Shown here: one piece after another, positions 5,457 through 33,656 of the stretch
Layout: each line of letters begins with the position of its first letter
Numbering within the stretch: the stretch's first letter is position 1
Origin: Polytrichum commune
Taxonomy: Eukaryota > Streptophyta > Polytrichopsida > Polytrichales > Polytrichaceae
NCBI GenBank assembly: GCA_950295325.1
Contig: OX485808.1
Coordinates: forward strand, 10,544,501-10,608,500
Length of the DNA stretch: 64,000 nucleotides
Reading direction: 5' to 3'
The notes under the pieces: model-generated
Told to the model about the DNA's origin: nothing
Seen by the model: the letters and a program-made list of their open reading frames with translations, nothing else
Databases searched by the model: none
Made by a program: the position numbers and the translations under genes

Positions 5457-8400
5457 TTAGAGATAACCATCAATTTCCTCTTTGTGGACAAATTCAACCG
5501 TTGATCTGCTCCCTTGTAAATTGATGTTCTGTGGTAGACTTGATTGCTTGTAGATTTGAGGTGGATGGATTTCCAATAACCTATCAACCACTTCTCGCAT
5601 TGTTGGTCGCATGCGAGGCAGGGGCTGGGTACAAGCAGTGGCCACCTTGAACATTTTGGCCATATTGGGATGATGCTGTGCACCCACTCGCGAGTCAAAA
5701 ATTTCCAGAAGATCATCCCCTTTCTCCAGTTTTGAGGAGGCCCACCTCACTATATCCCCGTCACCAAATTCAGGCTCCACTGGGCGCCTCCCAGTCACCA
5801 ATTCCATGAGAACCACACCAAAGCTGTACACGTCACTCTTCTCGTTCACTTTGAGTGTGTAGGCATACTCTGAGCGCAAAAAGATGACCACCAACTTAGG
5901 CTCAGATATTAACCCTTCAAGGTCCGATATTGTCATAATGGGCCTCAAGATGTCAAATAGAAGGGTTTATGGCTGCTTCTTGATGTTTTCAAGCTGAAAG
6001 TGTCAACGGTAACCATATCTAAAGTTAACCCATCTACCATATACATTATCCTGATGAAAGCATACAAAAATGGAGGACAAATTATAAAGAGATTTAAGCT
6101 CATGTACATGACCTAAACTCAAATACATAGGTACCACTTACATCTGTTCACTGTTGTCAAATACTGTATGACTTTATTTTCACTTCCTCCCTTCTGTGTT
6201 AAATGTGGACTCAATACCATACACCAAATAAATATTATTTCAATACATCTTGGTTTTTTGTAGCTTGATCCCTAAACCCCAAAAAAGCAAGGAGTGAGCA
6301 GAAAATGAAAGACAGAAGTAATTATTCATCCATATGATAGGGTTCATAATCTCCACATACCTGGTGCTATGTACCCATAGGACCCTGCCACAGCTGACAT
6401 GGTGACATTGTCAAGGCTCTTGGCCAAACCAAAGTCCGCGACATGCGCTTCATAGGTCTCATCTAATAAAATGTTGTTTGATTTTATGTCACGGTGCACA
6501 ATTTGAGGGACGCAGTCATGGTGCAAATATGCTAGCCCCTGTGCAAATTTAAAAAATCAATCCATAAATCAGCTTAAAACTGTAGTCAATATTGCTAGCA
6601 TGTTCCTTTTTTGTGAAATACAAGCATTCTAGAGTCATCAAATTCAGTAGTATTCTGGGTTTAGGGCTCATTCATTATTTTCTCCCTCCAAGTCCTCATA
6701 AATATTATGTGATAAGTATGACTTGAGCATAAGTTTCTGACTTACCTGAGCAGCTCCAATGGCGATTTTATAGCGCATTTCCCAGTGCAAGGTGGCATTT
6801 TGGGGGTCGTGAAGGAGGTCGCCCAAGCTGCCATTCGGCATGTATTCATACACCAACAAGTTGGACGTGAAGTCCGAACAACAGCACAAGAGCTTCACTA
6901 TGTTGCGGTGGCGGATGGCCCCCAATGTGTCCACCTGCAAAAGAATTTGGAGAAGAATTTAGATCAAAGCATACAATGATCATGCACCATTGTCTTCGAC
7001 TTTACTGGTAGCCTTGAAAGGAAAAATGAATTAGAAAACTTTGCTTTTCAGCAATGTGAAGAAAGGCGTCCTTGCCTTCTTTAGATTACAGCCTTCAAGG
7101 CAGGTACTATAGGTTTAATGCCTACTTTAGTGTGTGGGATTTGACACAAGGTAGCTTTGTATAGTCTTGAGGTCAAACTGGATGAGCTGGAACATAATCC
7201 CTCTGGAAATTGGTGAATAGGTTAAATTAGGTCTAATTCTGTTACGTATCCTAATCAGACACCTATATTTGAATGGTGTGTGGTTAGGTGTGGATCTAAG
7301 AACGGACACCAAAAATATATCATGTGTTTGCAAAAGATTGGACTATGTGCTCAACATTTGTTAATTAGGTTTTCGGGGTTCTATAGCTAACATAATTGGG
7401 AGGACCTATATGTCATCATTTAAGAAGAAAAATAATCTTCACTTGTGATACTGAATAAGATAACCATATGAGCTCCAAATATGATGAGGAAAATGGCTAT
7501 GGCATCGGTTTGGATTAGTTAATCTTGTACAAATCACGCGTTTAATATCCGAGGAGAAGTGAGTGCAGAGGTAAAAGTGCCTGCTGTCGGCCTCCTCACC
7601 TCAGCTTTGAACCCATGGTCGTGGAGATCTATTCCCTTGCCCATTCCCCACAACTTTTTGATGGCAATCACTTGACCATTTTTCAGCGTCGCCTTATACA
7701 CTTTCCCTCCTCCTCCGCTCCCAATCACATTTTCCTCCTCCAAGCATTCAGTGACATCTTTGTATGTCAATGTGGTTCGGTGGAACAATGTCATACTCCA
7801 AGGAGACAACCGCTCGCCCTCATTCATTAATCCCGGCCTGAATTTTTGTCTTTGACAGAAATACCACATTGCTAGAGTCGCTAGGGTTGCACTCGTAACT
7901 GCTATTGCGAGCACACCACCAATTATGCATATTGCCAAAGTCCGTGACATAGTGCCCTTTGAGTGCTTTGAGCTGCCAATATTGCACGAGGAAGTATTCT
8001 TGGTCTGGGAGGAAGAAATATTATTGGTGCCCACGACACATAGGTCAGGATTTCCAATGAAATTCGATGACGCAGAGGCACTTGAGAAACTTGACGCCTC
8101 AGTAAGAGTGCCAGAGAAATTGTTAAATGAGCAGTTGAAGGTGACAAAGTGCTGGAGTTTTACACTTTCCAGAGCTGTGGATAAGTCGCCACTGAGATTG
8201 TTGCTCGAAATATCGAGGTATATGAGATTTTCTAACTTTCCAACCTCAGTTGGAAAAGAGCCTGACAGCTTGTTCCTTGACAAGCCTAGATAGACTAGTT
8301 TTGTGAGGTTGCTGATTTCCATGGGAATTGGACCAGAGAATGAATTGTCATCCAGATACAAGCTTGTCACACTGGAGCCAAGATGCCCGATTTCGGCCGG

Positions 8401-11400
8401 AATTGGACCGGAGAGATTATTTTGATATGCGTGCAACCGTTCCAAGGTTGACAGGTGACCAATCTCAACGGGAAGTGGCCCTATGAAACTGTTGTTGTAT
8501 ATCTTCAAAAATCTCAGATTTTTCGCATTTGCAATAGTGGGAAAGATATTCCCTTCAAATTTGTTGTCATGGATTTCAAGCAGATTAAGTTTCGGTAATC
8601 CCCATATGCCACGCGAAATCGGCCCAGTGAACCCATTCCCAGAGATTCGGATCCGGATCAAGCTGGAGCAATTCCCATATGCCTCTGGTACGTTTCCTGT
8701 GAAGCTGTTGTTAAATAATATGAGCCTGGAAATTCATAACAGAGGCAGCTCAAGTTAGACCATTAAATGTAACACGTTTGAAACTTGTAAGAGTGCAGTA
8801 ACAACCTCCATTGCAGTATATTCATACGTTGGAATTGATCCTAAATAAGTTGATATTAGTAAAGGGCCTTAGGTGCCAACTTAGTTTGAATGGATGAAAA
8901 GGCTACATGGAGTCCTACATGACATGAAATGGATTTTATTAATTTTTCATGGGCTACCGGATTTTGAGTCAACCACACCTCAAAGAGGTGGGTCTAACAC
9001 AAAACCAGGAGACCACGTCACCTCAAATACTCACAACCTTAGATTTATTATAACTTACTGTGTAGAAGACCCACATGATTAGGATGGTAATGAGATAGCA
9101 TTCGGCTGAGAGTCCGGTTGTGTATGTCTTTGCACTACACTTGAAAGCTCATGACCACATGAAAAAACAATTTCAATTTTCCATGGTACAGCATTTGGAT
9201 GGGTTTCAAGGGCCTGCACAAAGTGATCCTAAGTTTCCCATTATTTATCTATACATATATCCAAGATGGTCAGGCATACCTCCATAGTTGTCCCCAGTAA
9301 CAAAGTGTTGATGGTAATGGCCCACTGAGCTCATTACTCGAGACATCGAATTGCATGAGGGTGCAGTTTTTCCCAAGAGTCTCCGGGACATGTCCGGTCA
9401 ACTTGTTCATGTAAAGCTTCAAATCATAGAGCTTCGTGAGGTCAACGATTCGTGGTGGAATCGCTCCTGTGAGGCTGTTGTTCTGTAAGTGAAGCACCCT
9501 CAAATGTTCTAATTTGGTCACGCCGTCTGGAATAAACCCCGTGAGTGCGTTTTCCGAAACATCCAGATCGTTGAGGGACGTAAGGTTCCAGATTTCAACA
9601 GGAATTTGACCTGTCAGCTTGTTCTTGTAGAGCTCAAGCCACTTCAGTCCCTGGAGTGCCATTAGTGACTGTGGAATGGCACCAGTCAGGTCGTTGTTTG
9701 AGAAGTCTAAGTACTTGAGCCTGGATAACTTTCCAAGCCAGGATGGTAGAGGTCCGATGAGGCGGCAACCTGCACACTCAAAGTATGTAAGTTGCTCCAA
9801 ATTTGCAAATGTCTCGGGCAGTCCACCTGCAGCCATATACAAGTAAGTCAGCGGGTGCAATTAATAAACTTGTCAATTGCCTTAATCTAATAAAATTTTG
9901 CATCTTCAAAATTCATATTCCTCCTTGGGGACACGATAAGCTGAAGGGATCAAATCAACTCCTGTACACTTTCCGATAATAAATATTCTCTGTTTTTTAA
10001 TGATGCCATGCCTGATTAGCTCAGTTTAGTTTGCAAGATGACACTTTGTGACAGGTATGGGAGAGGTACCAACTTCTACCAATTACAGGTAACACTATAT
10101 TCGTTAAAAACGAGACAAAATTGCATTTTGAGACTTCCAACCCTACTAGTGCGGAACTCAATTTCAATTACTCTAACCTCCCATACTGTTGACTGTTGCT
10201 TCATAATCTAATTACATTTTGCTGCTCTATGGAAAAACTTGTTCAAAATTGCGTCCCCTCAGAACGTCAGAAGCTCTTATTTACCTCTTACTCCACCAAA
10301 GTCTTGCTAGATGTTACAACAACAAGAGATAGCCATGATACATGAGGCGTGTCCTAAACACTCGCCAGCTTCTCCATTGTAGGAATGTCTATTGTGATGT
10401 ATTGCAAATCCAACAGGCTAGTGTTTTTCGAGTTTACTGTGTGCGATTGATTTTGAGAAATGGTTACTAGGTATGTATGTAGTCATTTACGGTACCTGGG
10501 CTGAAGGAATTCCAAGACAGGGAGAGATTCTTCATCTCCACCAAATTACCCAGCTCCACAGGAAAGCTCCCATTCACTCCACTTGCCACCACATCCAAAA
10601 CTTGAAGCTTCTGCAGGTGTCCAAAAGCACCAGGTAAACCCCCAGTGAACATGTTCAAGGAGAGGTTGAGGTACTGCAGGCTCTGTAGGGCAAAAATGCT
10701 CTCCGAGATGGGCCCAGTGAAATTGTTGGCACCTAGGTTCAGGTGCTCCAGGTTGGTACATTGTTCAATTTCCCCCGGAAGCTGGCCTGAGAAGAGGTTC
10801 TCTTGAAGCTGGAGTGAGGTGAGGAAGGGTAGCTGGCAAAGAGGAAGGTGGAGCTGTGAGCCCATCAGCTTTTTTCTGGACAGATTGATTCCTGCAGATT
10901 TTGTACAAACACCACACAAAACATTTTTAGGGTTAATGGGTCGACCTTGCACCTTCCACGGCTCGCATGCTGCCACTACTACAATATCCTGACATGAGGG
11001 ATCATTACCCCGGTTGAGATTAACTTCAAGTCTGTTTAGATCCAGCCTCGAGGTAAAGCTGGCAGGATGGAGTTAATCCTCCTCCTTCCCATTTGACCTT
11101 ACACAAGCAGAAGTCAGGCTCTCTTATCTCCAAGTGCCATAGTATGAAGAGTTTCGTGCGGTATTTGAAACTTGGAAAGAAGCGCAGTCTTAAGCTTTGT
11201 AAGCTCCTTCTTCCAGCTCATGACACCTGAAGCTACAATAGCCTTCAAGGAGTTCAATATTCCATGGAAGTTAGGGCATGCTCTATTTCAGAGGACACAA
11301 AGCATTCTGTTCTTCTATACTGCACCGTTAACAAGAATGACGTGCACAATTTTGGAGCCGCTTCTGCCATCAAGCATGAGATAGAAAATTAACAGGCAGA

Positions 11401-18969: not shown

Positions 18970-19215
18970 TGTGTATGATCTTGATTTGAATGCACCCATA
19001 TTGTACATAGCACAATCCTATTGTTACTTCGATGGTACATGAGATGTAAATTTATAGCAGGCTCTAGTTGTTGCACTTTGACTGATAATTGTTGTTGTTC
19101 CAGAATATATATGTGCTTGCATCCAACAACCCGATATAACATACACAAAAGTACATACACTACAATCTAGTAGCTAAGGCTTCTATTGGAATTTGACATG
19201 TAAAGTATACATATT

Positions 19216-19232
19216 GGGGGGGGGGGGGGGGG
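19216..19232 (+). repeat. Poly-G tract (17 G)
   Basis: An uninterrupted run of 17 G ends 12 bp before the target duplication of the 8.6-kb transposon. Long G or C tracts recur elsewhere in the window and may form G-quadruplexes or reflect slippage. Confidence 0.8.
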
Positions 19233-19617
19233 ATGTTGTATCACATAGGGGCGATTGCAAGCTAAGGTGGACCAAAGTAGGCAAGACTCCATGTCCATAT
19301 TGTCCACCTATAACCTTTGTGAAGTGGCAATGCTTACCTAGCGATGCTTACCTGGCAAGGGACACTAGGCTCGGCGTCCGCTACAATTAGAATAGCTCGG
19401 TTAAGTTTAGGGTCCACTGCAATTAGAATAGCGGTAAAGTTTAGGGTTAGTGTATCGTCTCCGTCGCGCTGGGATTAGACAGGGATTAGGGAGTGTGAAT
19501 CGAGTTTGCTGGGCCCATTGATGCTTAACGTCTTGCTGGACGTATTGATGCTCAACGTCCTGCTGCACGGCGTTGTTGCAAGGAGTGGATTTTAATTGCG
19601 GCATCTGATTAGTGAAG

Positions 19618-22301
19618 ATGGCACAAGGTACTGACACTCAAACATCCAGTGAGGCTAGAAGGGTGAGAATTAAGTTAGAATGCAAGAGACCACCGTTGTG
19701 TCAACGCGTTACTGGTTATGTTGCTCCCGTTTATGCGAAGGCTCCAGATTTGTTTCCATTGAGGAGAGATAGGGGATACACAAGAAAAGAGTTCCACAAA
19801 AAGTACGGGTTAGAGGTCTTTGGATTGTCGCCGAAACAACTAAAATGTCCTGATGATTGCACAGAGCAGGATCTTATAGATTTCTTTGGACCTGTTATAA
19901 ACAAAAATGGTTTCCGGTACTTGGGTTTAGAAGATGTTGATTTGATTACAAAGATTGAGCTCAGATGGATGCAAATGCACCAGAAGTCGCAGATGCTATC
20001 CACTAGGTTGATTACGAAGGGCATGGCGAGAGGAATATTTTGCAAAGAAAAAAAGGGTCGGAAGGTGAATTGGGCTGCATATGCGGAGTGGACCAATGCA
20101 GAGCAGTGGAGACGAAGGATGAGGATCAAGAGGCCCGGAAAGGGAAAAGGGGAGGAGAGTTCTTTTTTCTCTGACGATGAAGACCTCACCGAGATTGACG
20201 ACCACGGATCTACGCAGTCGAAGATCAGTATGCAAGAATGCGGACTAGGGTTTAGGCGGGATTTGGCCGGGGTTGAGGTTTTTTCTTGTTCGGGTGGGGC
20301 TCCTGAAGTGACAGAGATTTGGAAGAGTTTTCAGAATCACGCCCTGGACGAGCTTGCAAAAGTAGAGAGCAGATTGTCTTTGGGTTTGAAAGCAAAGGAG
20401 GAGTACACATTGGCAGAGGTGCGAGCAAGGTCCCAGAAGGATTTTGTGTACAATCGGCTTGCCTCTGCTCGAGAAAAAATGGAGAAGTTACAGGCTGAAA
20501 TTGAGCAAGAGAGGGAGCGCATTGAAGCTGGTGGGAGCAATGGTACTTGTGAGGAGGGGTCTCAAATTAGTGTCATGAGCAGTAGATTGCAAGCGCAAGA
20601 ATATCTTGTTAGTGACTTTGAGGGGATGGCTGCTGAAGGAGATGCTGAGTTGGAGAAGATCAATAAAGGTGAGGAGGGTATAGTTGCTAGGGTGGTTGAA
20701 CTTCAGGTTGATTCCAAGAAGGCCGGACGCTTAAGTCGAGCTGTGGATGTTATACTCACCAGGTTAGATTCAGGGGCATGGTTGTTTAAATCCATAGCAC
20801 CGCAACCATTTAAGCACAGTAAGCCAGATGGGAAGGAATTGGTAATGTTAGAGAAGTGTTCTTTTTGTGGGTTAGGGTTTGAGCCAGTATGGGATGTGAG
20901 ACTTGCATCCTGCAAACATGGCTACCACGAGTGGTGTTGCAGGTTTCACTTTGAGAATTCAACCAAGTGTGTTGAGGAGGGCTGCAATGAGGAGATGCAC
21001 GAGGGGTGGTGGAGTGCAGTTGGTTTGGTCAAGCCAGGCACATCTGCACGTGATTTCTCAACTCCAAGGGCGATAAAGTTGCTTCTAGATTCACCACTAG
21101 GTTCTCTTTACTTTCCCATCTACATAGTGCACAGCTTTAGGTCTATATTAATGGACACTTGGACTAAAAATCCACTCCGATATTCTAAAGTCTGTATTTT
21201 CTTCTACCTTGTCATACTGAAGTGGTTTAGTACCATGCAAACGTACATAGAAGTAGACAGTAGTGTCCAACACAGCAACACAGATGTCCATGACAAGTGT
21301 ACATAGAATTTAGGTGAGTGCATAATCCCCTACCAACAGTCAATACTTGTGGTGTCTTAGTGATGCAAGACTCCATGAGTCCATGCACATGTATATAGAA
21401 GTAGACAGTAGTGAGTAATCCCCTACCAACAGTCAATACTTGTGGTGTCTTAGTGATGCAAGACTCCATGAGTCCATGCACATGTATATAGAAGTAGACA
21501 GTAGTGAGTAATCCCCTACCAACAGTCAATACTTGTGGTGTCTTAGTGATGCAAGACTCCATGAGTCCATGCACATGTATATAGAAGTAGACAGTAGTGA
21601 GTAATCCCCTACCAACAGTCAATACTTGTGGTGTCTTAGTGATGCAAGACTCCATGAGTCCATGCACATGTATATAGAAGTAGACAGTAGTGAGTAATCC
21701 CCTACCAACAGTCAATACTTGTGAACTGGTATGTTTCCATTATCCCTCATGGTCCATGAAGACCACATGAAAGTCATTAGACGTGAATGACAGGTTTGCC
21801 ACAGTCCATTCGACGCTACCAATATACCTTTGTGTGCATTTATGGTTAACTTATAATTTCAATGGATTTCCAATTATTTACGTAAGGAATCTTGCCATGC
21901 TTTCGTAGAAGAATATGTAGATTGCTGAACGCTATGTGCTTTGGTTTGCAGGTGTAGAGTTTATTGGTACCCCCATCAAAGGTCAAGCTAATCAGAGGTC
22001 GCAACCTACGAGTGTTCCACAACAAGGACCATCTTCAAATGCTTTGCCCCATTCTACTCCAACTATGGAACCAGAGCTTCCAGCCCCAATTTCAGTAGAG
22101 AAGCAATCTCCAACAAGGTCAACCAAGTCGGCTCCTTCGTCGGCAGACGTGGCATCTGTTCTCGGTGACTTGACGGGAAAAAAAAATCATTATACAAAAG
22201 GAAAAGGAGTGACAAGGGTGCAGCCGAAGGTTGATGATGAAGAGGATGAAGAAGAAGAGGAAGAAGAGGAGCAAGAAGAAGAAGAAGAAGAAGATGGATA
22301 G
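19618..22301 (+). CDS. Transposon-borne zinc-finger/coiled-coil protein (2 exons, 610 aa; in-frame TAG)
   Basis: Exon 1 is 19,618-21,100 and exon 2 is 21,952-22,301; the weak donor ag|gttctc and acceptor tttgcag|gtg join in phase 1. The start is the first in-frame ATG, two codons after a GTG. Features: a basic N-terminal half; an acidic patch SDDEDL; a long charged helix/coiled coil at about residues 240-340; a RING/PHD-like cluster at about residues 414-466 (C-x2-C, CKHGYHEWCC, C-x4-C, then H and WW); a Pro/Ser linker; a Glu-rich tail encoded by a GAA/GAG tract at about 22,236-22,294. The frame stops at TAG 22,299-22,301, but the same frame continues 89 more codons to 22,568 with basic, nuclear-localisation-like sequence. 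The last codon may therefore be a recent nonsense change. Inferred role: accessory DNA-binding or E3-like protein of the transposon. Exon 2 is predicted from splice signals only. Confidence 0.65.
21324..21723 (+). repeat. 93-bp minisatellite, 4.3 copies, in transposon intron
   Basis: Repeat starts (aatcccctaccaacagtc) lie at 21,324, 21,417, 21,510, 21,603 and 21,696, exactly 93 bp apart. The units look identical by eye. Because 93 is divisible by three it creates an artificial repetitive open frame on the minus strand. The array sits inside the predicted intron of the zinc-finger gene and is evidently young. Confidence 0.92.
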
Positions 22302-22568
22302 GAGGCAGAAGAAGGGCTAGTGGAGGAAGGAGGTCGTCCGAAGAAGGGTTTGAACTTGAAGGCTGTGGCTAAGCGCAAATCAGCTGCTGCTGATCGGGCT
22401 GGGAAAAGGTCCAAAGCCGTTGAAGCTTCCAAAGCGAAGAGCAAATCTGATGGGGCTCCAAAGCATGCCAATGTAGTTGTCAATGCAGGAAAGAGGAAGA
22501 AGACACCAGTTGTTGACATGATATCGAAGGCATCCAACACACGTGCTGGGAAGGCCCAATGCAAGTGA
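22302..22568 (+). pseudogene. C-terminal extension beyond the TAG of the zinc-finger gene
   Basis: The frame of exon 2 stays open for 89 codons after the TAG, ending at 22,566-22,568. The sequence is Lys/Arg/Ala-rich (KRKSAAADRAGKRSKAVEAS and similar) and reads like the natural nuclear-localised tail of the upstream protein. A single substitution could separate the two. It could instead be a 3' UTR that happens to be open. Confidence 0.5.
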
Positions 22569-23082
22569 TAACTTGCTTGTATGTGCAGCATGTGCAAGTG
22601 TATTTGGACTCCCTTGCAATATGTGCAAGTGTATTTGAAGTGTACATTAGAAGATTGAACCTAGGATTTTGTGTGCCTATGTAGAGAGTGATTAAGGGAC
22701 ATTGGTTTAGGACACCTAGCAGACACTCTATATGTTGTCGATGAATAACCCTTGGAAATGACAATGGTTTGAGGTAATTTGACAATTTGATTACCCTTTG
22801 CATTAATTAAGTGGAGGTGTTGTGCAATACTGGTCTTTGTATTAATTGAATTGAGTTTAGGAGTTGATATGACCTTTGTAATGGCCGGTCCTTTGTTTAG
22901 CTTTTTGTTTGTTAAGTGTTTGTTTGGCCATTGTCATTTGCTTAGCTTGCATTTTGTTATGTTTATTGTTAAGGCCCTTCTGGTGTTGTCAGGGCCTTTA
23001 TTACAAGAAAACACATCCAATCATGAAACACAACCCGGCTTTGCATCAATATACACACATAGTCATGCGAAAGCAACGGGTA

Positions 23083-23262
23083 TGCCATTTGCATAAAGTA
23101 CTTAGTTTGGCTGAAATGCCATTTGCATAAAGTACTTAGTATGGCTGAAATGCAATTTGCATAAAGTACTTAGTCTGGCTGAAATGCCATTTGCATAAAG
23201 TACTTGGTCTGGTTGAAATGCCATTTGCATAAAGTACTTAGTCTGGCTGAAATGCCATTTCC
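23083..23262 (+). repeat. 34-bp tandem repeat, 5 copies, between convergent transposon genes
   Basis: Units starting tgccatttgcataaagtact occur at 23,083, 23,117, 23,151, 23,185 and 23,219, with a sixth start at 23,253. They differ by single bases. The array lies in the ~920-bp space between the two convergent transposon gene ends, where both 3' UTRs and terminators should be. Confidence 0.9.
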
Positions 23263-23488
23263 AATTATATATTCAAATTTCAGTCAAAGCAATCGTCACT
23301 CTACCATGTGTTAATCACATAAGCTAACAACTAGTAGTCTATACATTGCAAACAACCTCCCACGATTTAACCTGTTAAACCTGTTAACAACAAACTCATC
23401 AACAGACACACGTTGCATGTCAAAAAACACAACACACAATAGACAACAAGAACAAAGAATGGTGCACTCTACACACAACAAAACACAA

Positions 23489-26400
23489 CTACTCTTCATC
23501 TACTTCAAGAGTTGCTATGACTGACATGATGCCAGCCCGAGCGTCTGCAGGTAATTCGTACACCATGTCGTTCCCTTGAACCCTGTGGTCCTTGGGAGGC
23601 ATTACAAATTTCACAGCTCTTACAAAACATGCATGCATATATACAGTATGGGAATTTCTTAGTAGCACATATGAATTTTCTGCAGTCCCCCACTTCTGGT
23701 AATACTTTCCGGCTACTACTTCGTCCCCTTCATTGAAATCGGTACCCCACTTATCAGTGAATGGAGCCTTAACAAAATGAAGGGCCTTAGTGCATATGAT
23801 GATCCAAAAATCCTCACCTTCGTCGTTACCTGCTGCTACATTGACTGCGAAAATGTCTCCAACATCAAGGGTGGCCGCTAAAAGCTCCCCTTCTGCCCCA
23901 TACGCACTACTACCATCCCACACCCGCATCATGCTTTCCCTCATGAACTCTGGATCTACAGGCTGCAAAAAGCTTGCAGTCCATTCCCCCGTCCAACTCA
24001 AATTCACACAATTAGAATAGTCATTGTCAATACAGTGGGCACAAAAGCAAGCTAATTCCTTCACCATCAACATTCCAACTTGGATTTTGTTGGTTGGCAG
24101 GATAGAATGTAGCTTCCTTGTTCCAGGAATGAAATCGCAAGAATGGGTATTATCCCTCAAAGGTTGCACCTCAGACTCTAGCACATGGTGAAAATAACGT
24201 CTCAAAGGCTTTCTATGACCCGTGTAAGACGTCTCAGGTCTCTCAGAGAGATTGGCTCTGAGGTACCCTACAACATCTCCCGCACTCTGGAGTTTCACAC
24301 CGTAAGGTTTGAGTTGCTCCCTTCTGATAAAACATTTGACAACTACACCAGCCCCATCATGGGGCCCCTTCCCATGACCTGACCCAAAGAAACTCCACAG
24401 CATAGAACATCCGTTTGTCATATTAGGATAGCGACTTATGAAGTAGAAAGGCTTCTTTGACTTAAATTGAGATGCACAACCATCTGACCACACCCAGTGT
24501 TGTTTTGGCTCAAAACCGTTCCTCTTCATATGGTCCCAGTGCAAGCCAAAACAATGTTGAACAAATTCCGAGTCATGGTGTTTGTCATCTGTAATGTAAA
24601 AATGATACTCCGTCAAAATGAAAGTATCTTCATTGTACGGGTCTAGGTCTGGGTTGTGTCTGAACGTAATATGAACCAATATACTGACCTGATAAGAGTG
24701 CCAATGCATGCTTTGCACCTCATTCTGGATCTCAAACTTGTAATTCTTTGCAAAGTCCACTACAGATACAACTGTATCCTTGGGAAATGATCGAATTCTT
24801 TTCTTGAATTGTGCATCTTCCCATCGGGCCACAAAGTTATGGGTCACAAATGCCTGCAATTTAGGCTTCAAATAATCAAAGAAGACATCAGCTGTTGTTT
24901 TTTTGTACACAAGGTTTAGTTTCTTCAGGACTTTACCTTTCTTTGAGAGGGTTTCCTCGTAAGCAAACCGTCTCCACTCGACTGGCCTACCGTCGGTTCC
25001 TTCTTCCTCGTCCTTGCACAAAGGGAGCTTCTGAATACCGCATCTACCACACTCACCATATAGGCATTTGACGTCGTGCCACTCGTCAAATTCGCCCTTT
25101 GGACAGACCACAGACTCCCACAATGGTGTCAGCCCTTCAAACTCTATTCCCGAAGCCTCGCAACTTTCGGACACCATTCCATGCTGGCACAAGTGATCTT
25201 TGGGTCTAGTCGCATGGTATTTGTTGAGAGCAATTCTCAATTCATTGAGCTCTACATGGTATATACAACAACATGTGTTGCTCTCTTTCATAGCTTTGAT
25301 GAAGAATGGCTTCAAGCTGCAGAAAGAGCGCTCGCCAACAATAACTTCTGGATGTGCTTCCTTGAATCTGATGAAGAACTGTGTCTGCAGCACATCAACC
25401 ATACAATCCCAATGTAAGTGCATTTATTCAATCACGCATCCATGCATGCAATGAACTACTATCTGTCACATTCATCTAGTCCATTTTCAGTAGAAGAATC
25501 ATGTTGTATTCCATTTTAATTGTACAATGACCACTGTCATCGACTTTTCACAAACGGGAGTCCACAGTAGAACAATATTGACTACATAAACAATTATTGA
25601 AGGACTCTAAACCTATGCCCACTATTTGCTAATGGACTTCTCACCACACTACACAACAAGTGATTCGATATGGACTCCTCACCATAAGAGAGTACAGAAC
25701 TGTCCATACAAAGACACTCTACAAAATGTATCCACATCCATGGACTAGGCTCTTATACATGCTTCTTACAAATGGACATGTAAGTTATGGCAGTCCTGAA
25801 TTTGTTATTCACAATCCATTCAACCCTATGGTGAGTGACCTTTGAGAAGCCAAAGTCCACAGATAGAGTCTCATCTACATATCCAATGAATGAATATGGA
25901 CTTCTAAACTTACATGACAACCCTAAACTGCATCAAAAATCCCTTTGCAATGTTCAATCCCTTGGTGTGGACTAATTGCGAGACAATTTATGATCTAATA
26001 CGTGAGTACTTGACACAATATACATAGTCCTTGTAAACCTCTAAACCGTAGTTCTCAATCAACGAATTCCACAATCCAGGGCCCTGTCATACACATTTCA
26101 TTGGCACTCAAGATTTTTAAAAAAGGAATTGAAGAATGCCATACCTGAGTCTCCTGCAAATAATGTGTGGCCTTCTCGTCTCGTACACTTGCCGAGATCC
26201 GCTTCCGAGTCACGTCCTTCTTATTTGGAGACACCCTTGTCTCTGAAATCCACCACTTGATTATTATCTGTTTTTCATCAAGTGCGATACCATCAACACG
26301 CTTTGTCCTAACTGACAAAGAAAACAAGAAATCTCCCGCATTGTGCAGAACCTCCCGCCTCACAACGGCCTTAGAGACGTTGCGGTGATGGATGCGCAAA

Positions 26401-26996
26401 ACCCTTGCAACTTGCCTTACTGAAGAGTCGCCCTGCTCAAGAATCGACGTGTCCAAAATGGCATGCTTTATTGCCAATTTTGATGCACTATTTGCAGTCC
26501 TCACTTCATCTAGGCGTATACTAACACCACGCAATATTTCCTGTTGTGCAACGGCTACCTTCTTCGGCAAAACATGGTCTGGAACATCGGCACACATTCG
26601 ACTATGATCGAGGACCCTCCCAATAACCGACTTTCTAGATCTAGGACCAGGGCACACATCTAAGTTCCTCCGGATACACTCTACAATAACGGAAGCAAGT
26701 CTGTTCTCTTCACGAGCAGTCATAGAGTCCTCAACGTCCCGCATTATGTCTCGCTCGATGCGCTCTACACGTTCTTCTTCTGTGTGACGAAATAGACGCT
26801 CATTCCGATCGGCTTCACCCTTTGCAAGAAAATCGCGGCTCTTTGCTTTCCGCGCATTCTGCGCAGCTAACCTTGTCAACCTTGCTTGTTGTTGTGCTGG
26901 GGAGGCAAGATGTGCATTCACAGCAAGAGATCGACGTTGTTGAGGACCTGGCCTCCTCACCCCTGCCCTTCTTTCCTTCACCTTCTGAGACCCCAT
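23489..26996 (-). CDS. DDE-type DNA transposase of the 8.6-kb element (2 exons, ~915 aa)
   Basis: Minus-strand exons 26,996-26,145 and 25,384-23,489 join in phase 0 (donor actcag|gtatgg, acceptor gtgctgcag|acacag). The ATG at 26,996 is the first in frame after a stop. The N-terminal ~130 residues are basic and Arg/Gln-rich; a helical region follows. The exon junction falls within a ...YLQETQ|TQFFIRFKEAHPEV... segment. The middle is Cys/His-rich (CCCIYH, CLYGECGRCG), likely zinc-binding. The catalytic core shows VVDFAKNY with downstream EVQSMHW (Asp ~494), VWSDGCASQFK (Asp ~585) and SGHGKGPHDG (Asp ~627), the pattern I know from a eukaryotic transposase family with SDGxxSQFK and GHGKGxxDG motifs. 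The C-terminus looks like a small beta domain. No stop or frameshift, so it may be active. Superfamily name (Sola-like) uncertain. Confidence 0.82.
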
Positions 26997-27840
26997 TAAA
27001 ACACGCGCATTCAATCCTGGGCACACCTCTTTCGCCGAAAACCGTGAAGAATACACTCAAGTCAAGTCGCAAGAAGGTCGCAATGCGGCAAGGAAAATCC
27101 AAGGCAACATCTGGGCGCAAGGAAGCTCGAAGGCGGCAGGGCGTTCGGAGCCGCAAGAGCGAACTGGGATGAGGATCCTGTGGGCTCGAACGAAGATTGA
27201 GGGATGAAATCTGAACGTGCCTCAAAATGTTCATCCTAAACGTCACATGGCCTCAGTATGACGATACCAGGAATATCCGAATATGGCTAACCCTTGTGAC
27301 TGCAATTTTGCAAACGGGCAGAAAATTCCGAATTAAACTATAGGCAACCCTAGATAAGGCCTTCTTAAGAAAATGTAGTGAAGGTTGTCTCATGAAAAAT
27401 AAAAAATAAGGGGTCAAAAGTTACACCGAAAATAGTTCAGATTTATGAGGATTCAATAGTCCATATTAGCACATATAAGTGTGTGTTCATTGAATTTTTT
27501 GAGAGGAAACTATTCTAATAGATTATCTCTATTTAAAATTGTAATCAATATTGGGGTTTACCTTCTCTAATATATAGGACATGAGTCCATACCCTATATA
27601 GCTGAGGACTGTGACAGTACATATGAAGAGATTCAAAAGTCCCCCCCTTTGGGAATACAATATTTATTTCAAATAAAACTCTACAACATGATAGTATACC
27701 AAGTTTTCAACATAAATACAAGTCCATTTCATTTAAATAACATCTCCAAACAAATTGTGGTTCCTACAAACTTCTAAGGCCTGAAATCTGTGGATTGTGA
27801 CAGTCCATAATGGTCCACCTTAGCTTGCAATCGCCCATAG

Positions 27841-29480
27841 TTTTGTACAAATCAATAGGGTGCTATGAATTTTTTTGGAGGGAGGTAAGCATGTTCTTTG
27901 GGCACCACAAATCAATCAAAATGAGTGTTTAAAAGGGGGATTTTAGAGGTGTTAATGTACATAATATATGTTATTAGTTAACATAGTATTCATGAAAACG
28001 TCACATTCACATGTGGTAGGTTTTTTCAAGGCTGACTTAGTTTCTAGTTTTTTGGAGTGCACTTGAACTTTGGAAAAAGTAGTTGGCCAAAGTGGCGTCC
28101 AAAGACCAATTCAAGATAGCCTTCTTTGTATTCGCGAAAAATGCATGTTTGACATTTTTAACATGTCATGTGATGTTTTCACGAATACCATGTTTTAATT
28201 ATAATTTGTTTTTGTCTTTAAATATAATGGCTATTGAAATTTCAAAATAGAGGTAGATGTACAAATTGCAATCCTAAAGTTTAGAGAAAAATTTGACAAT
28301 TTTTGTGCTTACAATATGACTTAAATGATCATTTGTTGATAAATCTATATGCTATCATTGCCCTAGCTTCAATGATGGATGTTGCATGGTCAAATTATCA
28401 TTATATACATCGTATGGATGGAAAACCTTCAAATATTATTTTAAAATTTGAAAGTGAAAGTGGATTGGGGGCGATGTATATAATTTGTGAGCAGACTTTG
28501 GGATAATATATTTAATCTAGAAGATGTTGGTTTTCAACTCCAAGAATATGAGGGTAATATCATCATGTCAAATATTGGTATATTTCTTAAACATCCCTTA
28601 ATTACGTTCTCATAAGTTTCATCCAATTCAAACACTCACCCCACCACTCAGTACTCCAAGACAACTTGGCACAATCCAAATACACATAGTGCAGAGCATA
28701 GGAACAAATGGGATAGTACAATCTATGCCAAGGTGGAGAAGAAATGCCAATGGGTTAAACAACAAACACATGTGTATCATGTATCTATGCAAGGTTGAAT
28801 ACATGATGGCGAACACCTTCATGTATGGAGATGTATCTTTAAACTACAACAAGGTCCTGCGCATCATACCTGCATCATATAGGGTTGCAATTATTGCCGA
28901 GCACTAATAGTCATAATATATAATCATTATGTGATGTTGGTACATTGTTGATATATAGAGTTTTATGAACTTCCAAAATATGTAGGTAATTATAGCTATT
29001 TTTGAGGTCCACTTTTTAACATCCAAGCTACACTAATAATTAAGGCTTAATCTTAGATATACAATTGTCAAGTTGATTATATGGTAATAGATCCCTTGAC
29101 AAGATGTAGAGCATGAAATTCATGATTTTAGGGTTCATTTCTCAAATGTCAAATGTCCCCTTGTATTCCATTTCTAGCCAAACTATATCTCATGTTATTA
29201 CTCACTACTCATCGCTCACATGCTAGTTTTCCTCCCTGTTGGCCATCAATTGTAATTGTTGAGGACTAGGGTCCATAACATTACTCAACTCCTTGAATGC
29301 ATTCCATGGAACTAGGTATCATATTAGAATAATTATCCTTTGGTTCCAAAAATTCTTGTCTATGGGGAGCACTCAAATTGTGTATTGCAGAGTTTTTGAC
29401 AAGCAACTATAAAATCAAACTTTTTCACTTGCAGCCTCTTTCTTTAAAAAGAGTCCATCATCTAGTTGCTTGGAGCTCGT
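27841..29480. other. AT-rich gene-free stretch with a decayed family A fragment
   Basis: No supported gene. At 28,228-28,310 a segment (gaggtagatgtacaaatt...cctaaagtttagagaaaaa) matches the interior of TIR family A, with another trace near 28,440-28,465, so an old family A copy is likely here. Confidence 0.45.
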
Positions 29481-32699: not shown

Positions 32700-32790
32700 C
32701 AGGGTTAGGGAAGGGTTAGGGAAGGGTTAGGGCAAGGACAGGCAAAGACAGGAAAGGAAAGGGAAAGGAAGCAAAGGATTGGAGGCAGAG
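32700..32790 (+). promoter_or_regulatory. Purine-rich leader with gggttagg repeats
   Basis: Three direct gggttagggaa-type units are followed by an unbroken purine-rich stretch (aaggaaagggaaaggaagcaaagg) up to the start codon. This probably is the 5' UTR or core promoter. It is not a telomeric array, as the unit is not TTTAGGG. Confidence 0.4.
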
Positions 32791-32798
32791 GAGCAGCA

Positions 32799-33656
32799 AT
32801 GGCGAATTTTGTCTGCCTGCCGTCCAGGACAATGGCACCTGCACTTTGTTCATCTGCCTCCTCACCTGCCCTTGCCTTCAGACCAACATGTTTGTCTTCG
32901 GCTGCCCCCTCCTCTATCCACCTGCACCAAATTCAAATCAATTCTGTTCTATTTGGGAGCCAAGCGAGGGTGAAGCGGGATCGTCCTCTACAACGGTGCA
33001 GTGTAATCACACAAGTTTCAGATGGTGCCAGCAGCGATGGAGAGGTTGCTGAGTCGATTTCAAAGGACAAAACCTCAGGGCCAAAGGCAAAGTTTCTTGC
33101 CAAGAGGACAGAAACTTATGAGCTTGAAGAGGTCGAGAAGCCACTCGCAGAGTACATGGCTCTGCCTGCAAGCCAATACTCTGTTCTGGACGCGGAGAGG
33201 ATTGAGAGAGTGGATGACACCATGTTCAAGTGCTATGCACATAGATTCAAGTTTTTTTCATTCGAGGTCGGGCCCGTGCTTTTGGTGAGGGTGGAGGAGC
33301 AGCCTGATGGCTGCTGCATCCGCCTTCTTTCTTGCACTCTTGAAGGCTCGCCACTTGTTGTTGCACAGAACGAGAAATTTTCTGCAAGCATGGTGAACAA
33401 GGTTTCGTGGAGGGAGAGTGACAAATCTCCCACCGCGCGGCAGCTTGTGTCAGATACCACACTTGAGGTTACTGTGGATATTCCCTTCCCGTTTCGTTCA
33501 ATTCCTGTGAATGCCATTGAAGGAACTGGCAACAAGGTGATGTCACAGCTGCTTAAGGTCATGCTGCCGAGGTTTTTGACGCAGCTTGGAAAGGACTACT
33601 ATGCATGGGCTTCTGGAGATTCATCCCGGAAGCCTGTTGGAACTGGGGAGCTCTAG
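32799..33656 (+). CDS. DUF1997 protein, probably plastid-targeted (285 aa, single exon)
   Basis: An intronless frame of 285 codons whose ATG sits in a good context (agcaATGgcg). The first ~70 residues are Ser/Ala/Arg-rich with few acids (APALCSSASSPALAFRP), typical of a chloroplast transit peptide. The mature part carries the DUF1997 fold, with landmark segments YMALPASQYSVLD, FKFFSFEVGPVLLVRV, a VTVDIPFPFRSIP motif and a C-terminal LLKVMLPRFLTQLGKDYYAWA. DUF1997 proteins are conserved in plants and cyanobacteria; their biochemical role is not established to my knowledge. Length matches plant homologues. No neighbour suggests a function. A tandem array lies immediately upstream. Confidence 0.9.
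   Translation: MANFVCLPSRTMAPALCSSASSPALAFRPTCLSSAAPSSIHLHQIQINSVLFGSQARVKRDRPLQRCSVITQVSDGASSDGEVAESISKDKTSGPKAKFLAKRTETYELEEVEKPLAEYMALPASQYSVLDAERIERVDDTMFKCYAHRFKFFSFEVGPVLLVRVEEQPDGCCIRLLSCTLEGSPLVVAQNEKFSASMVNKVSWRESDKSPTARQLVSDTTLEVTVDIPFPFRSIPVNAIEGTGNKVMSQLLKVMLPRFLTQLGKDYYAWASGDSSRKPVGTGEL

Follow-up and report, generated by a model that had tools for sequence, protein, structure and literature searches.

The window analysed here, a stretch of 64,000 nucleotides from Polytrichum commune (assembly GCA_950295325.1, contig OX485808.1, positions 10,544,501–10,608,500, forward strand), contains between positions 19249 and 27836 an element of 8588 bp that is very probably a complete, autonomous-type cut-and-paste DNA transposon, from a diverse Sola-like lineage with a putative DDD transposase and 4-bp target-site duplications. 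The element has well-defined ends, interrupts a dispersed repeat, of which it has duplicated 4 bp, and carries two convergent genes, both of them conserved. All genome searches were made on the 408-Mb assembly (labelled G000), whose contigs are designated C1 to C7 and whose transposase loci are designated L0xx.

The ends of the element are inverted repeats identical at 26/26 positions, each bordered on its outer side by ATAG:
19245–19248, no strand: target-site duplication ATAG, left (sequence and empty sites)
19249–19274, plus strand: left terminal inverted repeat, 26 bp (end comparison and genome search)
27811–27836, minus strand: right terminal inverted repeat, 26 bp (end comparison and genome search)
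27837–27840, no strand: target-site duplication ATAG, right (sequence and empty sites)

A first-pass annotation of the window had described a complete DNA transposon with two convergent genes, identical 26-bp repeats and an ATAG duplication; all of these claims are supported. Allowing for up to three mismatches, four places in the assembly were listed for the 26-mer: both window ends, with no mismatches, and the two ends of a single related element of 9173 bp (C7:11947223-11956395; one and two mismatches), which has ATAT on both flanks. The reversed-pattern control gave no matches. Within these limits, the search detected no further ends that would denote miniature inverted-repeat derivatives of the window subfamily. 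An 18-base second end pattern was discarded as unspecific, with 96 matches versus 158 in its reversed control, and no count was taken from it.

The target of the insertion is a dispersed repeat, which flanks the element at window positions of ca. 19100–19248 and 27841–27970. A query made of the joined flanks, with its G run shortened, retrieved at least 38 other matches (from 40 that were scored among 135 candidates, two of the 40 being the window's own flanks), and 14 of these, mostly the best-scoring, were aligned. As expected in the first-pass annotation for empty sites, all 14 cross the insertion point with a single 4-mer, gap-free within 10 columns of the join; the 4-mer is CTAG in ten of them, with variants in the other four. 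Because a C precedes ATAG on both sides, empty sites alone cannot tell a 4-bp from a 5-bp duplication, and the choice was decided by other elements. Searching with the end of a related subfamily yielded pairs of facing ends, of which 15 were picked by their ends alone; 12 of them have an exact 4-bp duplication and none a 5-bp one, in agreement with the length read from the window in the first pass. Among the three failing pairs, the first resembles an inverted copy of a different pair, with the break at the element's end, the second has an altered first base as well as flanks matching in 3/4 bases, and the flanks of the third are unrelated. Six further elements (the window, the C7 copy and L014–L017) constitute a biased sample, since the scan that yielded L014–L017 accepted only ends flanked by a 4-bp duplication; it detected a GGG-end pair with a duplication in 6/21 sequences, several of the 21 not holding both ends. 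Pooling both sets, a 4-bp duplication occurs in 18/21 elements and a 5-bp one in 0/21, while mismatched flanks match over 4 bp in 1.2% of cases. The alternative of a 5-bp duplication, CATAG, in which each end would lose one base, was thus rejected. Matching 3-mers adjoin the ends in 0/21 elements, as opposed to matching 4-mers in 18/21. The 18 exact duplications include ATAG, ATAT, TCCT, GTGG and CACA, and none is TTAA.

The putative transposase gene occupies the right half of the element:
26145–26996, minus strand: transposase exon 1, 284 amino acids (matches in relatives; ratio of nonsynonymous to synonymous substitution rates, dN/dS, 0.42)
25385–26144, minus strand: transposase intron, GT..AG, 760 bp, conserved position (alignment of relatives)
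23489–25384, minus strand: transposase exon 2, 631 amino acids plus stop, holding the D-D-D core (open reading frame, genome matches and alignment; dN/dS 0.18)
24755–24757, minus strand: first conserved acidic residue, in the context DFAxNY (DFAENY; 13/13 sequences)
24482–24484, minus strand: second conserved acidic residue, in the context SDGCxxQFK (12/13 sequences)
24356–24358, minus strand: third conserved acidic residue, in the context HGKGxxDGAG (13/13 sequences)

Both exons are open in the window copy and, when joined, predict a protein of 284 + 631 = 915 amino acids; the ca. 915 residues reported in the first pass therefore stand, although not as an uninterrupted frame, since they are split into two exons by the 760-bp intron. 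Exon 2 retrieved 76 genome matches, merging into 61 loci, both numbers being lower bounds; searches with the 26-bp end and the transposase thus revealed further copies, as expected in the first pass. A match to exon 1 lies upstream of exon 2 in the window and in 19/20 loci (the exception is L021), and among the 20 sequences with exon 1 the intron donor GT occupies the same alignment position in all, and the acceptor AG in 18 (not in L014 and L017). An alignment of 13 sequences, in which the window is joined by 12 frames taken from 11 of 20 large loci (two of them from L011), contains a conserved D-90-D-41-D core, with D212 and D345 (numbered as in this alignment) present in 13/13 sequences and D303 in 12/13 (it is replaced in L022), as well as many shared cysteine and histidine residues.

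Pfam comparisons of these 13 proteins, at E up to 1, retrieved no transposase family: twelve had no match and the thirteenth matched GGDEF at E 0.093. A PDB search with the transposase at the same threshold also gave no match, and a literature search for the motif strings in print found none. It is very unlikely that the element belongs to another known DDE superfamily, such as Ginger or a TTAA family like piggyBac or Kolobok; duplication length alone does not define Sola, which we compared by description only, but Ginger and piggyBac have Pfam models and nevertheless were not matched, TTAA is absent from the 18 exact duplications, and the ends start with GGG. A distinct, so far unnamed superfamily is an unlikely reading as well. 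It would agree with the lack of Pfam transposase or PDB matches and with pattern scans derived from the alignment, which produced no confirmed relative among 40 pattern matches in viral contigs or among 45 in 84,980 prokaryote species, represented by one genome each. However, Sola transposases are not known to have a Pfam model either, and the DDD core, the 4-bp duplication and the known presence of Sola in a moss and a fern fit a Sola-like assignment.

The second gene converges on the transposase gene from the left:
19618–21048, plus strand: second gene, long 5' exon, 477 amino acids, RING-H2-like at residues 414–456, 3' edge approximate (open reading frame and profile matches; dN/dS 0.30)
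21952–22568, plus strand: second gene, presumed 3' exon, with an acidic and then lysine-rich tail (comparison with the C7 copy; acceptor placed by eye)

The finger, at the end of the long exon, has the spacing C-x2-C...C-x-H-x2-H-x2-C...C-x4-C, so that, of the C3H2C3 ligands, C-x2-C and C-x-H-x2-H-x2-C are present and the last pair departs from the usual spacing. A seven-member profile matched solved RING domains in PDB, with a best E of 9.7e-5 (RNF165), and, with E values of up to 1 allowed, 6/7 members matched Pfam zf-RING_2 (lowest E 5e-4). The finger spacing is present in 10 of the 21 sequences scanned (the window and 20 loci); in eight of the other 11 (L007, L009–L012, L019, L020 and L022) the finger matches of the partner lie beyond the scanned piece, and L021, L023 and L024 have no second-gene partner within 40 kb. 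From the zinc-finger/coiled-coil gene of the first-pass annotation we thus retain the zinc finger and the convergent orientation, whereas the coiled coil had only weak matches. In the window copy, an in-frame TAG at 22299–22301, 88 codons ahead of the next stop, would cost 88 residues of the tail and keep the finger; the C7 copy is open at this point. Probably, then, the window copy no longer makes the full-length second protein.

In most of the relatives, the two genes occur together. A convergent second-gene match exists within 40 kb at 45/61 transposase loci, 26 of them within 5 kb, and a divergent one at 0/61, while two of the remaining 16 have a match on the same strand; in 500 trials of random placement, the mean was 0.23 convergent loci and the maximum three. 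Correspondingly, 68/91 second-gene pieces fall in convergent pairs. The distance matrices of transposase and second gene, for seven elements, correlate with r = 0.997, a value reached by 1/5040 permutations, namely the true order itself. Comparing the window with the C7 copy, dN/dS is 0.42 for transposase exon 1, 0.18 for exon 2 and 0.30 for the second gene (dS 0.22–0.23), and therefore both genes were under selection during the mobile phase of the lineage. Together, the convergence, the dN/dS of 0.30 and the co-divergence make the second gene look like a lasting partner; these comparisons suggest that the two genes work together, and the pairing is old.

Several observations weigh against the element as read here. 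Single-sequence AlphaFold models of the transposase reached a pLDDT of 31 for exon 2 and of 34 for the core, leaving a DDE/RNase H fold unsupported. The window's second protein alone matched zf-RING_2 at E 0.39 and 11.5 bits (cut-off 27.3), and its last cysteine pair is C-x4-C. L023 and L024, from a subfamily with no detected partner, show no RING motif in ca. 9.2 kb. Regarding the pairing, 16/61 loci have no convergent second-gene match within 40 kb, 19 of the 45 partners are 5–32 kb away, and one partner is common to two transposase loci; loci are also not all independent, because some are near-identical copies. Finally, 23/91 second-gene pieces are unpaired, and some of them may be host genes or solitary pieces. 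Several such second-gene-like frames, some of more than 500 amino acids, have no transposase match nearby (e.g. C7:458748-460109, C6:129007-130362 and C4:55506130-55507438) and could belong to the host, be remnants left on their own or accompany transposases that escaped detection.

Plants commonly have RING genes. The second gene might be a mere passenger, picked up from the host by chance as a RING gene and unused in transposition, as the loci lacking a detected partner and the unlinked pieces would allow; captured second genes are indeed known in Sola2, namely Fanzor1 (PMC3627910). We consider this quite unlikely, because matches to this protein, convergent as in the window, extend across subfamilies whose transposases are ca. 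38–58% identical to that of the window, and because it diverges in step with the transposase in seven elements and is under purifying selection.

Under the preferred reading of a Sola-like transposon with a lasting partner, the two-exon protein of 915 amino acids would bind the GGG-starting ends and would use its D-D-D core to cut and join them, the cuts being staggered by 4 bp. With less certainty, the RING-H2-like partner may be required either for transposition to be efficient or for the element to escape host control, perhaps by pairing with the transposase or through a ubiquitin-ligase-type activity on the transposase or on silencing factors.

The identity between copies differs among subfamilies. 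The C7 copy, the only other member of the window subfamily found, is 89–92% identical to the window over the main coding blocks (8–11% differing), and over most of the remainder aligns in short pieces at ca. 77–94%, with 90% over the right-hand 540 bp; it has one stop in transposase exon 2. Another subfamily, however, includes three copies that are ca. 99% identical over 8.5 kb and have different duplications (AAGT, TTAT and GAAT), and therefore the wider family moved recently, although one of these copies, L015, carries a stop in exon 2 of the transposase, and another, L017, is without the usual acceptor site. The window copy itself is not clearly recent, because its nearest relative is 89–92% identical and a stop interrupts the frame of its second gene; the earlier description of a recently mobile, possibly active element is weakly supported for this copy, whose subfamily bears no sign of recent movement other than its clean ends and duplication.

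Some relatives are considerably larger. Nine of the 12 pairs with exact duplications span at least 15 kb: two of 15.7 kb and others of 15.1, 17.3, 27.5, 32.4, 33.4, 38.8 and 50.8 kb. Those with facing ends 32–51 kb apart (C1:10939948-10990729, C4:18814829-18853643, C2:62965576-62999015 and C6:32746241-32778670) could be giant or nested elements; nesting explains part of the size, because another transposase of the family, distinct from the first, lies inside the 33.4-kb element (C2:62980428). A third open reading frame, of 407 amino acids (C4:8189852-8191072, L056/L012), recurs in 15–39 kb relatives of one subgroup, with 17 genome pieces on C1, C2, C3, C4, C5 and C6. Its product has motifs resembling zinc fingers and, as judged by eye, an H-x-D...H pattern reminiscent of 2-oxoglutarate oxygenases; Pfam gave only weak zinc-finger matches and no oxygenase, and the one PDB match (E 8e-4) was to a chain that looks unrelated. 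Beside this frame, several of the 15–39 kb relatives have an extra internal end-like sequence (e.g. C1:24073777-24073801, with similar ones on C1–C6), as if these elements were composite. In addition, C1:24062755-24078455 and C1:24132894-24148594 are of equal length and opposite orientation, lie 54 kb apart and have one flank mirrored, which looks like an inverted duplication breaking at the element's end.

We propose, tentatively and as a possibility short of probable, that these elements form a deep plant DDD lineage dependent on a transposase and a RING-H2-like partner, kept convergent throughout its radiation, including giant forms of 15–51 kb whose ends are intact and whose 4-bp duplications are exact, the third shared frame being present in some. 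If so, they would represent a new type of partner for cut-and-paste transposition, with ubiquitin-type control built into the element, which raises the question of whether an element-encoded ubiquitin-ligase-like protein aids transposition or counters host silencing. Descriptions of Sola-type elements in plants are sparse, and the transposase here had no Pfam transposase or PDB match in our searches. The mechanism is testable, given at least 61 loci, 18 elements with clean ends and exact duplications, the empty sites of the window element and the near-identical copies within some subfamilies.

Two repeat arrays complete the element:
21317–21781, plus strand: array of 93-bp tandem repeats, within what is presumed to be the second gene's intron (repeat scan)
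23082–23263, no strand: tandem repeats of 34 bp, separating transposase gene and second gene (repeat scan)
Elsewhere in the window, open frames at 5457–11072 and 32709–33656 resemble, by eye, a receptor kinase with leucine-rich repeats and a protein targeted to plastids, respectively; such neighbours by themselves point to a genome that is probably that of a land plant.

Autonomous two-gene elements include PIF/Harbinger, with a transposase and a Myb-like protein, and MuDR, with mudrA and mudrB. The window element resembles both in joining a transposase to a lasting second gene, but it differs in duplication length (3 bp in PIF/Harbinger and ca. 9 bp in MuDR) and its proteins are unrelated to theirs. 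Sola3, piggyBac and Kolobok target TTAA, seen in 0 of 18 exact duplications, and Ginger has an integrase core domain (Pfam rve), which was not matched by the transposase; these assignments are unsupported. So is PIF/Harbinger, its 3-bp duplication (PMC2213677) occurring in 0/21 elements.

The name Sola fits the 4-bp duplication and the D-D-D core, with the comparison made by description only, and we file the element near Sola because of these two features and because no other family matches. Bao and colleagues reportedly distinguished Sola1, Sola2 and Sola3 in 2009, with transposases said to be unlike other known transposases; both the 4-bp duplication and the dissimilarity to known transposases (neither Pfam transposase families nor PDB entries matched at E up to 1) are found here. 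In published accounts, Sola elements have 4-bp duplications and a DDD core, with Physcomitrella named as a host (PMC10741241), Sola1 is listed for Physcomitrella (PMC9033089) and Sola is reported in Azolla (PMC6786969), so that its presence in plants is known but sparse. The window element and its relatives agree with those descriptions in their 4-bp duplications, putatively DDD-type transposase, variable inverted ends and presence in a plant, as in Physcomitrella (Sola1) and Azolla, and also in size (2–9 kb, up to more than 15 kb, for Sola). They differ in the conserved convergent RING-H2-like gene, unmentioned in the passages of those accounts that were consulted; a partial literature search, which is not proof of absence, found no RING partner described for Sola. 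A close parallel is with the Sola2-Fanzor elements of social amoebae, described (PMC3627910) as having a Sola-type transposase, second proteins and AT-rich 4-bp duplications (such as ATAT, AAAT and ATTT), as likewise seen around the window element. In those elements, however, the second protein is Fanzor1, in parts differing between families, whereas here a RING-type protein is common to many subfamilies.

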